Assembly: GCF_003544835.1 (NCBI RefSeq)
Contig: NZ_CP032099.1
Span: 1,116,001 to 1,180,000 of the forward strand
Source: Aliarcobacter skirrowii CCUG 10374
GTDB lineage: Bacteria; Campylobacterota; Campylobacteria; Campylobacterales; Arcobacteraceae
Direction of reading: 5' to 3'
DNA: 64,000 bases
Shown: positions 36,558 through 57,898 of the stretch, piece by piece
Layout: the number at the start of each line of letters is the position of its first letter
Numbering within the stretch: position 1 is the first letter of the stretch
Notes under the pieces: generated by a model
What the model was told of the DNA's origin: nothing
The model's database searches: none
The model's input: only the letters and a program-made list of their open reading frames with translations
Translations under genes and position numbers: made by a program

Positions 36558-38414
36558 TTAGAAACTAGCCTTTAATCCAACAAATGCTGCTCTTTGACTT
36601 GTAGCATATCCATCAACTATTTGATAATCTTTGTTGAAAATATTATCAAGTTTAAGATATGTAGAGAAGTTTTTATTTGCTTGATAATCAATAACTGCAT
36701 TCCAGATTGTATAGTTTCCTGTTTTTACATTTGGTTTATTATAATCAAAATTTACACTTTCTCTACTTCCAATATATTCACCATTTACATTAAAGTGGAA
36801 ATCTTTTAAACCATAATAATCAACTCCAAAACCAAACTTATTTGTCGGACGATTTTCAAGTTTATCTCCATTTGTTTTTTTTGCACTAAGATTTGTATAG
36901 TTTAAATTTAAGAATATATCTTCATAAACTTCATTTTTATAAGCTATTTCAGTTCCCTTAAATTTACTATCTCCTTCAATATTTTCATATTTCCAAGATG
37001 TACTTGCATTTGATACCATTAAATTATTAACTTTTGTATTAAAGTAAGTAATAGAAAAACCTTTGTACTCAAATCCTATATCATAAGATTTTGTTTTTTC
37101 AGGATTTAAGTCTGGATTTCCACCCCAAGCTGTTTTATATAGCTGTATAAATGTAGGTACATTATACCCTGTTCCATAGTTTGCACTAAGGTTTAAATCT
37201 TCAACAATATACTGTTTTATTCCTATCTTTCCTGTTGCTTTATTGTCGAAATCACTATATCTATCATATCTTAAAGCTTCAGTAATAATAGTTTTATCAT
37301 CGAAAAACTTATTTGTATTTGTTATAAAAATGCTTTTACTATTGTTTTTCTTATTTAAATCTTCTTTATCTTCATAATATTTAGAATCTACTCCGATAGT
37401 TAAAGATGAAGAGTTATTCCAATAAGGAATAGTTGAATTAATACCATACTCTTTTATATCAGTTTTATTCTTTGAATCATTGAAACCAACTTCTGTTTTT
37501 GTTTCGTTTTTAAATCTTGAATAGTTCGTATATATATTTGTAGTTGCAAAGCTATTTTTATTTTCATAATTCAAACTAGCAATACTATTTCTAGTTTTTG
37601 TTTTAGCAAAAGAATCAGCAGAAGCAATTATATCTGGATTCCCAAAAGCATCTGAAAGCATTTCATCAAATTTTACTTTTGCATCTATAGTTTCATAAAC
37701 TAAATATACTCGATTGTTTTCATCTAAGTTATAACCTAAATTTAAATTTACTGTTGTATTTTCATATCCATCATCTTCATAATTTTTTGCTTCACTACTC
37801 TTTGGTGAAATAGCTGAAAAACCATCTGTATCAACTCTAGTTGCACTTAATTTTGCATCAAAATTATCATTTTTGTGTGAAATATTTACCCTAGCAATTT
37901 TTGAGTCATATCTTCCAGCTTCAAGATTTATATTTGCATGTGTTCCATCTTTTGCACTTTTTGTAATAATATTTATAACCCCAGCACTAGCATCTGCTCC
38001 CCAAATACTACTTTGAGCCCCTTTTATTACTTCTATTCTTTCAATATCATTTATCATTAAATGTGCAAAATCAACAGAACCATCATATGGATTATTATAT
38101 CTTATTCCATCGATTAAAACTAATGTATTTCCACTATTCATTCCTCTTAAATATACAGAACTTAATGTTCCCATCCCACCACTACTTGAAATACTAACTC
38201 CTGAAAGAGAATTTAAAGCTTCAACAACTGTTTTAAATTTTCTATCTTCAATTTCTTGAGCAGTTATAACATCAACATTGGCTGTAACATCTTTTAATTT
38301 TTGCTCTGATTTTGTAGCACTTGTAACTGTGATTGTCTCTAAAGTAGTTGTTTGTGAGTATAAATTTGTTGCTATTAAAAAGCTTGCAACTAAGCTTATA
38401 TTTGTTTTTTTCAT
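36558..38414 (-). CDS. BtuB-type TonB-dependent receptor
   Basis: A 618-aa outer-membrane receptor with a signal peptide ending near YSQ. ETITVTSATKSEQ is a likely TonB box, followed by the plug (VVEALNSLSGVSISSSGG, YLRGMNSGNTLVLIDGIRYN, IERIEVIKGAQSSIWGADAS, AGVINIITKSA) and a 22-strand barrel ending in AAFVGLKASF. The plug is closest to BtuB/cobalamin receptors. AAAGG precedes the ATG. It is followed by matching SBP, ATPase and permease genes, so this is one uptake system. No cobalamin riboswitch is visible upstream. Confidence 0.9.
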   Translation of the reverse strand: MKKTNISLVASFLIATNLYSQTTTLETITVTSATKSEQKLKDVTANVDVITAQEIEDRKFKTVVEALNSLSGVSISSSGGMGTLSSVYLRGMNSGNTLVLIDGIRYNNPYDGSVDFAHLMINDIERIEVIKGAQSSIWGADASAGVINIITKSAKDGTHANINLEAGRYDSKIARVNISHKNDNFDAKLSATRVDTDGFSAISPKSSEAKNYEDDGYENTTVNLNLGYNLDENNRVYLVYETIDAKVKFDEMLSDAFGNPDIIASADSFAKTKTRNSIASLNYENKNSFATTNIYTNYSRFKNETKTEVGFNDSKNKTDIKEYGINSTIPYWNNSSSLTIGVDSKYYEDKEDLNKKNNSKSIFITNTNKFFDDKTIITEALRYDRYSDFDNKATGKIGIKQYIVEDLNLSANYGTGYNVPTFIQLYKTAWGGNPDLNPEKTKSYDIGFEYKGFSITYFNTKVNNLMVSNASTSWKYENIEGDSKFKGTEIAYKNEVYEDIFLNLNYTNLSAKKTNGDKLENRPTNKFGFGVDYYGLKDFHFNVNGEYIGSRESVNFDYNKPNVKTGNYTIWNAVIDYQANKNFSTYLKLDNIFNKDYQIVDGYATSQRAAFVGLKASF

Positions 38415-38641: not shown

Positions 38642-39364
38642 CTATTTTGTATTCATATGATGGTTATGTTCTATATTTATAGTTTTATTTTTTAAAAGAG
38701 CAAAACCGTTGTAAGCTGTATATAGTCCAAATAAAATAACTAAAATTGATGCAATTTTCATAGATATATCTCTAAAGCTTGATTGTTTAAACAATCCAGC
38801 AAAAAAACCTACAAAAAATAGTGCAAATATTGTAGTTACTCCAAAAATAAACATTACCATTGCACCATAAAAAGCACTTCCTGTACTTGCTGCCATTATT
38901 GCAAACATATATACAAAACCACAAGGTAAAAAGCCGTTTAAAACTCCAATTAAATAAAAACTAAGTTTTGAATTACTTCCTAAAACTTTTTTAAATAATT
39001 TTTGATAAAAAGGAGATTTTGAAAAAGTTTGCTCTAAAATTGTTAAAAATTTTATTTTTCCCATTAGTGAAAAACCAATAAGTATCATTAATAATCCAGT
39101 TAAAAAAAACAAAAATCCTTTTGAAGTTGTAGAAAAAGATAGCACAGAACCTAAATATCCAAATATAAAACCTAAAAATGTATAAGTAGTTACTCTTCCA
39201 AAATTATATAAAAGATGCATAAGTGCTTGTCTTTTTTTGCTATCGTTGCTATTTATTTTTACGCTTGAGTATGCTAAAACAATTCCACCACACATTCCAA
39301 TGCAGTGCCCAAAAGAGCCAATAAAAGCAATACTTATTATAGATATTATACTAATTGTTTCCAT
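38642..39364 (-). CDS. SafE/TauE (DsbD-like) family membrane protein, His-rich tail
   Basis: About 240 aa with six membrane helices. FIGSFGHCIGMCGGIVLAYSS near the start and IGVLNGFLPCGFVYMFAIM in the middle form the Cys-containing pseudo-repeat of the TauE/SafE-like, DsbD-related family often next to metal or cytochrome oxidase genes. The C-terminus NIEHNHHMNTK is rich in His and Met, as in metal-handling proteins. I start it at ATG 39364, behind GGGAG; the TTG at 39385 has no ribosome site. First gene of the operon that leads into the 59-aa ORF and the BtuB-like system. Substrate unknown; transition metal is an inference. Confidence 0.8.
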   Translation of the reverse strand: METISIISIISIAFIGSFGHCIGMCGGIVLAYSSVKINSNDSKKRQALMHLLYNFGRVTTYTFLGFIFGYLGSVLSFSTTSKGFLFFLTGLLMILIGFSLMGKIKFLTILEQTFSKSPFYQKLFKKVLGSNSKLSFYLIGVLNGFLPCGFVYMFAIMAASTGSAFYGAMVMFIFGVTTIFALFFVGFFAGLFKQSSFRDISMKIASILVILFGLYTAYNGFALLKNKTINIEHNHHMNTK

Positions 39365-39397: not shown

Positions 39398-39403
39398 ATT
39401 ATA
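39398..39403 (-). promoter_or_regulatory. -10 box of the SafE-BtuB operon
   Basis: Minus-strand TATAAT (39403 to 39398) predicts a start near 39391 and a short leader containing GGGAG before ATG 39364. It sits between the gene and the small-RNA terminator, which suggests that the small RNA and the operon are separate transcripts. Confidence 0.5.
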
Positions 39404-39416
39404 TATTTTTTGGCAT

Positions 39417-39453
39417 AAAAAAAGGCTTTACAGAGGGGAAAAACTGTAAAGCC
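39417..39453 (-). terminator. Rho-independent terminator of the candidate small RNA
   Basis: A perfect 10-bp stem, GGCTTTACAG (39424-39433) with CTGTAAAGCC (39444-39453). On the minus strand it is followed by seven T (39423-39417). The 10-nt loop reads TTTTTCCCCT on the transcript. No protein gene ends upstream of it on that strand. Confidence 0.8.
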
Positions 39454-39540
39454 ATATAAAATTAAATTCATTTCAAAAAAAGTATAGGATACCAAAAAAT
39501 TGTATCAATTTTGTAGGAGGATCTAATACAGATACCCTAT
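39417..39540 (-). ncRNA. Candidate small RNA with C/U-rich terminator loop
   Basis: The minus strand between 39553 and 39417 has all parts of an independent small RNA of about 124 nt: a TATAAT -10 box, a 5' stem pairing 39540-39531 with 39493-39484 (10 bp, two G-U), two inner hairpins (TGTA/TACA with a loop holding CCTCC, and AAATTG/CAATTT), and a strong terminator with a C/U-rich loop. No protein frame fits. The CCUCC and UCCCCU loops could pair with Shine-Dalgarno sequences, as RepG of Helicobacter does with G-rich leaders. Sequence homology to RepG is not claimed. Confidence 0.55.
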
Positions 39541-39547
39541 GAGTGAA

Positions 39548-39553
39548 ATTATA
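39548..39553 (-). promoter_or_regulatory. -10 box of the candidate small RNA
   Basis: Minus-strand TATAAT (39553 to 39548), placing the start of transcription near 39541-39540, exactly at the beginning of the 10-bp closing stem. The upstream sequence is AT-rich with T-tracts, as in Campylobacterota sigma-70 promoters. Confidence 0.5.
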
Positions 39554-39623
39554 AACAAAGAAATATTAAAATAAGATAAAATCTGTCCTATTTAATATTA
39601 AATTATTACTAACTTTAAAACTA

Positions 39624-57548: not shown

Positions 57549-57582
57549 CTCTCAAAATATAATATAAAAATATAATTTTTAA

Positions 57583-57898
57583 TAGGTAGATTTGTAAGCC
57601 GTGTTATGTATTTGACAATAATTTATCTAGAAGCCAAATCACTTTAGCTTTCCTGCGAAGACCAAAAATGTGAAGCTTATACCAGGTCTTCTTGCTACAA
57701 GTTGGGTTTACATAGCTGTTAAGATTGCTCAAAACACTGGTAGGCTCTTACCCTACCCTTTCACCATCACCAATAAATTGGCTGTCTTCTCTCTGTTGCA
57801 CTATCCCTTAGATTACTCTAGCCATCCGTTAGATGGAACCTTGCTTCACTGTAGCACGGACTTTCCTCTTGAATTCAAGCTATTGTCTAATCTACCTA
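57583..57898 (-). ncRNA. rnpB: RNase P RNA (rnpB)
   Basis: About 316 nt on the minus strand. Conserved bacterial type A elements are present in order: GAGGAAAGTCCGTGC near the 5' end, GGTGAAAGGGTAGGGTAAGA in the specificity/P-loop region, GTAAACCC, and ACACGGCTTAC near the 3' end. The ends TAGGTAGATT and AATCTACCTA pair perfectly to form helix P1, which sets the borders. It is the catalytic RNA that removes 5' leaders from tRNA precursors. It fills the 384-nt gap between oorC and lolA; a 79-codon frame on the other strand is spurious. Confidence 0.94.

Follow-up and report, generated by a model that had tools for sequence, protein, structure and literature searches.

The intergenic region ahead of a SafE-type membrane protein gene in Aliarcobacter skirrowii CCUG 10374 is predicted, with high confidence, to hold a small-RNA gene, whose product is best read from sequence comparison as a family-specific, trans-acting RNA. 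It is quite probable that this RNA blocks the translation of ccoN, which encodes a subunit of the cbb3 oxidase, and that it is itself run by a copper-linked two-component system. The region lies in a stretch of 64,000 nucleotides of that genome, referred to below as the window, in which all positions are counted. G000 denotes the genome to which the window belongs, and labels beginning with a small g denote genera of the Arcobacteraceae.

Locus and predicted fold

Downstream of TATAAT on the minus strand come ATAGGGTATC, counted from 39540, a loop containing AUCCUCCUACAAAAUUG, its partner segment GGTATCCTAT (39493-39484), a linker and the terminator (Table 1). A first-pass annotation, made from the sequence alone, had described the -10 box, a 10-bp closing stem, a perfect 10-bp terminator stem followed by seven T and an exposed, anti-Shine-Dalgarno CCUCC loop. 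All four are borne out, the box by the sequence and the terminator by sequence and fold alike, and the CCUCC residues have unpaired probabilities of 0.89-0.99. The 137-nt stretch from the -10 box to the terminator has a minimum free energy of -28.2 kcal/mol (z -3.5), and one of 200 shuffles is equally low. Both the minimum-free-energy structure and the centroid consist of a single interrupted hairpin (outer stem 10 bp, inner helix 7 bp, CCUCC loop) plus the terminator; the three-way junction with two inner hairpins that had been suggested was dropped because the predicted fold differs from it. An alternative helix, UAGGA..UAUUU/AAAUCC..UCCUA, can be formed in nearly all sequences of the genus (96.6% of cells paired). 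In one clade of the genus it is the minimum-free-energy form and pairs part of the C-rich segment.

Table 1. Features of the locus in the window
Feature	Position	Strand	Basis
Predicted small RNA, ~124 nt	39417..39540	-	Fold, conservation and covariance-model matches
-10 box TATAAT	39548..39553	-	Sequence; TAnnAT kept genus-wide in the alignment
Predicted 5' hairpin domain (outer stem, inner helix, seed loop)	39484..39540	-	Fold; arms rewritten yet pairing elsewhere
Outer (closing) stem, 10 bp	39540-39531 with 39493-39484	-	Sequence and fold
Predicted seed UCCUCCUACAAAAUU	39507..39521	-	15 nt perfectly complementary to the ccoN ribosome-binding site AAUUUUGUAGGAGGA
Intrinsic terminator: 10-bp stem, loop UUUUUCCCCU, seven T	39417..39453	-	Sequence and fold
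Terminator stem, perfect 10 bp	39453-39444 with 39433-39424	-	Seven T at 39423-39417
Conserved block TAGGACAGATTTTATCTTATTTTAATATTT upstream of the promoter	39561..39590	-	Genus alignment; sister-genus loci
Second TATAAT, ahead of SafE	39398..39403	-	Sequence; TATAAT past the terminator also in many relatives
SafE-type membrane protein gene	38642..39364	-	Pfam DsbD_2, E 1.6e-51
TonB-dependent receptor gene, third in the neighbourhood	36558..38414	-	Gene neighbourhood

The RNA locus is flanked by a HAD phosphatase gene on one side and by SafE or a NosL-like gene on the other. All homologous loci seen have SafE downstream; the gene upstream differs in some of them. The separate -10 box of SafE, already pointed out by the first-pass annotation, is present, so that transcription through the terminator of the RNA is not required for SafE. 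In relatives (loci L013, L019-L029 and L065-L074), a gene for a membrane-anchored, NosL-like protein with a CGM motif lies between the RNA and SafE, and no Pfam or NCBIfam model matched this protein. The genome of the window does not have this gene, and the RNA directly precedes SafE there.

Conservation across the Arcobacteraceae

A DNA search recovered a homologue at E 2e-8 or better in 29 of the 31 genomes of the genus; both genomes without a match are drafts, and one has a completeness of 54%. Across the genus, the oriented alignment shows hardly any change in the arms AUAGGAUA/UAUCCUAU or in the loop AUCCUCCUAC. No covariation of the closing stem was seen within the genus, because that stem is invariant there, and the terminator stem has two-sided changes at six of nine pairs. 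A covariance model built from the homologues, as the first-pass annotation had recommended, and covering the RNA alone without its promoter flank, found a single copy in each of 46 of the 104 genomes of the family. Outside the genus there were 17 matches, 16 of them with the right loop and context; the exception is the match in g12. This weak match (L078) and one in another family (L079) were rejected as chance on account of their wrong context and absent loop. In samples of the order and phylum, the only match beyond the family was a weak one of wrong context, in G226. Where the model had missed a genome, inspection of the region upstream of SafE revealed further divergent copies by synteny.

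In other genera the arms of the hairpin are rewritten and mostly still pair, as in g9 (GAAAAUUAAAA/UUUUAAUUUUC enclosing CCUCCUACUACUAA), and in g17 (UAUCAA/UUGAUA enclosing UCUCCUAAU, and CGAGGUU/AACUUCG enclosing CUCUCCUAA), which indicates that it is the hairpin with its C-rich loop, and not the sequence of the arms, that is conserved. Together with the covarying terminator, these rewritten but pairing arms supply the stem covariation in related genomes on which the earlier proposal had been made to depend. In g9, several of the short hairpins are matched by none of 300 shuffles (z -3.7 to -6.0), the versions of the 5' domain within the genus lie weakly below their shuffles, and the g3 copy has the loop without a good hairpin. 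Across genera the 5' hairpin keeps its CUCC(U) loop, so that an unpaired C-rich segment, a feature of anti-Shine-Dalgarno small RNAs, is conserved. The C-rich terminator loop, which had been likened to that of RepG, is smaller in one clade, is kept in part of the genus alone and is replaced in other genera.

At the gathering threshold of Rfam 15, RNase P alone was matched in the window, a full-length bacterial class A RNA at 57579-57898 on the minus strand. At E values up to 10, the best local matches reached 21 bits against a cut-off of 60 and 18 bits against 34, none of them credible. The notion of a new stand-alone small-RNA gene thus stands in so far as the gene is predicted, conserved and outside Rfam, and falls in so far as RepG was to be its model. 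A further element upstream of SafE in a g18 genome (L319 in G088) has a single TTAACA, GACCCTTTTACATGTACAAG and a terminator-like repeat, and is possibly a very divergent copy of the RNA.

Complementarity to ccoN

The ccoN gene lies outside the window (G000:C1:217891) and encodes subunit I of the cbb3 oxidase (TIGR00780, E 2.4e-134). This subunit binds haem and copper, and the ccoN product is a major copper user. Targets were sought by sequence patterns and among the leaders of 66 window genes. In G000, RNA and ccoN match perfectly over 15 nt (AATTTTGTAGGAGGA) at the translation start, and the longest perfect run averages 10.4 nt across the 43 genomes that have both partners. Leaving aside the rRNA operons and the RNA gene, G000 has six occurrences of GTAGGAGG, the seed's complement, two of them at a gene start, namely at the Shine-Dalgarno sequence of ccoN and at rplF; ccoN is the only gene to carry it at its start in all five genomes of the genus that were checked. 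The complementarity of the RNA to the ribosome-binding site of a gene at another locus is thus conserved. Second copies of ccoN do not have the site.

The extent of the pairing differs between lineages. In much of the window's genus it reaches the start codon (UUUGUAUU(A/G)A with UUGAUGCAAA), in g19 and g3 the upstream leader UUGUAUAUAA, and in g17 nearly the whole ccoN leader, where both partners depart from the other genera in a matching manner (ccoN TATATCAA..TTAGGAGG, RNA CUCCUAA..UUGAUAUA, -38.9 kcal/mol). Duplex energies with ccoN are -36.0 (G000), -30.9 (G010) and -33.1 (G094) kcal/mol, better than those of all 66 window-gene leaders; in G061, three of these leaders pair as well as ccoN or better. 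When AGGAGG was held fixed and the remaining leader shuffled, ccoN stood out in G000, G002, G010, G094 and G097 (0-6 of 200 shuffles as good), and in about half of the tested genomes pairing beyond AGGAGG is no better than the control; RNA and ccoN pair poorly in G024, G003, G013 and G027. Swapping partners between genomes, a comparison that throughout ignores shared ancestry, gave P 0.0017 for 12 representatives, P 0.046 by energy and 0.017 by length for all 43 genomes, and ranks of 7/720 and 116/720, the latter unremarkable, for two subsets of six types each. No GTAG precedes the AGGAGG of ccoN in g7, g10, g18 and g20, and no RNA was recognised there. Both g2 and g15 keep GTAGGAGG at ccoN, and the RNA was not found upstream of SafE there, so that the mere distribution of RNA and site does not settle the matter. 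Overall, the predicted pairing with ccoN is well supported by sequence; ccoN is very probably a target of the RNA, and repression at its ribosome-binding site is the likely outcome.

A di-haem peroxidase gene in two genomes, c-type-cytochrome-like genes and an apparent hydrogenase small-subunit gene (set L256/L263, L252, L144, L158 and L161) likewise have TAGGAGG or GTAGGAGG as ribosome-binding site and are possible secondary targets. The ccoN leaders themselves (L165-L234) carry a GTGAC direct repeat followed by TTGTATAT, kept across nearly the whole family, which suggests the site of another regulator or a conserved leader element.

Promoter repeats and a candidate regulator

In sister genera, the region of the conserved block upstream of the promoter runs on into TTAACA-N5-TTAACA repeats, which end about 10 nt before the -10 box. 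Direct repeats at 11-bp spacing are typical for regulators of the OmpR/PhoB type. In the window's genome and most of its genus the repeats look degenerate, with one 11-bp unit seemingly lost, and hence the copper link there rests on orthology. The pattern was scanned in six sister-genus genomes, with the reversed pattern as a control. All 24 of the 24 box sites are intergenic against 16 of 30 control sites, as a comparison of raw counts, and since the number of boxes (24) is not above that of the reversed control (30-31), discrimination comes by position and gene content only. The box sites precede the RNA (four), ccoN (three, in reverse orientation), nosZ (two), PCuAC (one), TonB-dependent-receptor-like genes (nine) and a TonB-like gene (one), and four are without clear meaning. 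Two of the nine receptor-like genes were checked against profiles, and one proved to be a relative of the copper receptor TIGR01778, below the cut-off.

Genes for an OmpR-family regulator and a kinase adjoin some of the box-preceded TonB receptors, and such a pair lies 1.6-10 kb from the RNA or SafE in G097, G034, G091, G053, G094, G084, G035 and G083. In G000 the orthologue of the regulator is found about 50 kb from the RNA locus, beside a TonB receptor (L360; compare L353 and L358). The arrangement of these genes and boxes suggests that the RNA probably lies within a two-component copper regulon. As the repeats are common to ccoN, copper-uptake and copper-enzyme genes, copper limitation is the most likely signal, to which we would give about an even chance. 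A block AGGA(C/T)A..TTTTATCTTATTTTAA (about 39590-39565 in the window, minus strand) is strongly kept in the genus and partly palindromic (GATAAA..TTTATC), and is possibly the site of a second regulator besides the TTAACA repeats.

Proposed mechanism and alternative explanations

From these comparisons we infer a transcribed RNA, a bound regulator, a repressed target and a copper signal, which may act together as follows. An OmpR-family response regulator would bind the TTAACA direct repeats upstream of the -10 box and switch the RNA on, whose seed loop would then pair with the Shine-Dalgarno sequence of ccoN and, in several lineages, also with the start codon or the leader UUGUAUAUAA. With these positions covered, ribosomes should not load on ccoN and synthesis of the oxidase should fall. 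Under copper limitation, the two-component system would thus turn on copper uptake (TonB receptors, PCuAC and SafE) together with the RNA, which would stop the cbb3 oxidase, as the main consumer of copper, from being translated; with these repeats at the promoter of ccoN too, the circuit would be a feed-forward loop. This copper-sparing role, with uptake genes on and cbb3 translation off, is put forward tentatively and falls slightly short of an even bet.

The same RNA with the same target might instead answer to oxygen, to iron or haem supply or to the state of the envelope, and so tune respiratory haem proteins. TAGGAGG at the starts of di-haem peroxidase genes in two genomes and of c-type-cytochrome-like genes, oxygen-dependent control of ccoN in Campylobacteria (CemR of H. 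pylori, PMC11334517) and the resemblance of several box-controlled TonB receptors to B12 or siderophore receptors more than to copper receptors would all agree with a non-copper signal, which we regard as rather unlikely, because the box set holds PCuAC, nosZ, NosL neighbours and the TIGR01778 copper-receptor relative, and SafE is a constant neighbour of the RNA, the NosL-like CGM gene a frequent one. Unlikely, and less probable still, is a general anti-Shine-Dalgarno RNA of which ccoN would be one target among many: CCUCC complements any strong Shine-Dalgarno sequence, and rpsO and rplF also carry TAGGAGG, but pairing outside the core tracks ccoN lineage by lineage, and GTAGGAGG is rare in the genome and conserved at gene starts for ccoN only.

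Two further readings, which leave ccoN aside, fit the evidence poorly. A cis-acting leader or attenuator of the SafE operon, its terminator being opened under some condition, would account for the constancy of SafE downstream of a changing upstream neighbour and for the existence of two alternative folds, yet it is very unlikely, given that a TATAAT belonging to SafE or the NosL-like gene follows the terminator, here and in many relatives, that the alternative helix leaves the terminator stem out, and that a conserved loop matching a distant gene is unexplained by a cis element; a riboswitch or attenuator for SafE was dropped on the grounds of these separate -10 boxes. The chance that the invariant inverted repeat ATAGGATA..TATCCTAT acts at the level of DNA, as a protein-binding site, is slighter again: its arms are invariant genus-wide without covariation, but those of g9 and g17 are entirely different and still pair, and the terminator covaries.

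Relation to known regulatory RNAs

Iron-sparing small RNAs are textbook knowledge. Anti-Shine-Dalgarno and metal-sparing small RNAs are already known kinds, and the RNA proposed here, if the reading is true, would be a copper-saving counterpart of the iron-saving ones. Copper sparing by small RNAs is expected, and no case of it named, in a review from 2022 on regulatory RNAs in metal homeostasis (PMC9294342), and small-RNA or riboswitch control for copper has been called still uncharacterised (PMC9426467). No description of a copper-sparing small RNA was found in the open-licence literature, and a wider check is needed before any claim of priority; nor was a small-RNA map of Arcobacter or the Arcobacteraceae found there, and the CemR paper has nothing on this locus or on small RNAs (PMC11334517). 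For the concrete copper-sparing candidate at this locus, the target and the exact residues that would pair can be named, a promoter box and a regulator can be proposed, and many species have homologues. The Arcobacteraceae further gain a conserved predicted small-RNA family, and the terminal oxidase of Campylobacterota is tied to the supply of metal in a way that can be tested.

RepG of Helicobacter pylori (PMC8295292) resembles the predicted RNA in belonging to the Campylobacterota, in being short, with hairpins and a terminator, and in setting a C-rich loop against a G-rich leader. It differs in that its terminator loop pairs with the homopolymeric G repeats of tlpB, whereas the RNA described here has its predicted seed in the 5' hairpin loop, the ribosome-binding site of ccoN as its predicted target and a terminator loop that is not conserved; the flanking genes, orthologues of hp1043 and hp1044 for RepG, differ as well from the HAD phosphatase and the SafE or NosL-like gene found here. 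The parallel falls because the C-rich terminator loop is not kept outside the genus, and targeting through that loop was given up for the same lack of conservation. CJnc230 of the epsilon-group bacterium Campylobacter jejuni (PMC11187230), like the RNA proposed here, uses an anti-Shine-Dalgarno segment on ribosome-binding sites to repress translation, but its CCUU lies in a single-stranded linker, and it is located downstream of flgE, depends on RpoN and has flagellar targets.

The RyhB-type iron-sparing small RNAs, including NrrF (PMC9294342, PMC5586341), share with our proposal the principle that an RNA of a metal regulon cuts the synthesis of metal-rich respiratory enzymes. They are controlled by Fur and linked to iron, whereas here the boxes are copper-linked, the predicted target is a haem-copper oxidase and there is no sequence relation. 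CruR of Bordetella pertussis (PMC9426467) likewise ties post-transcriptional control to a TonB-dependent copper transporter, but through a nascent-peptide, Rho-dependent cis mechanism. An RNA motif linked to cbb3 is known from the Rhodobacterales, where HRC-8-4 lies between ccoP and ccoG (PMC8632094).
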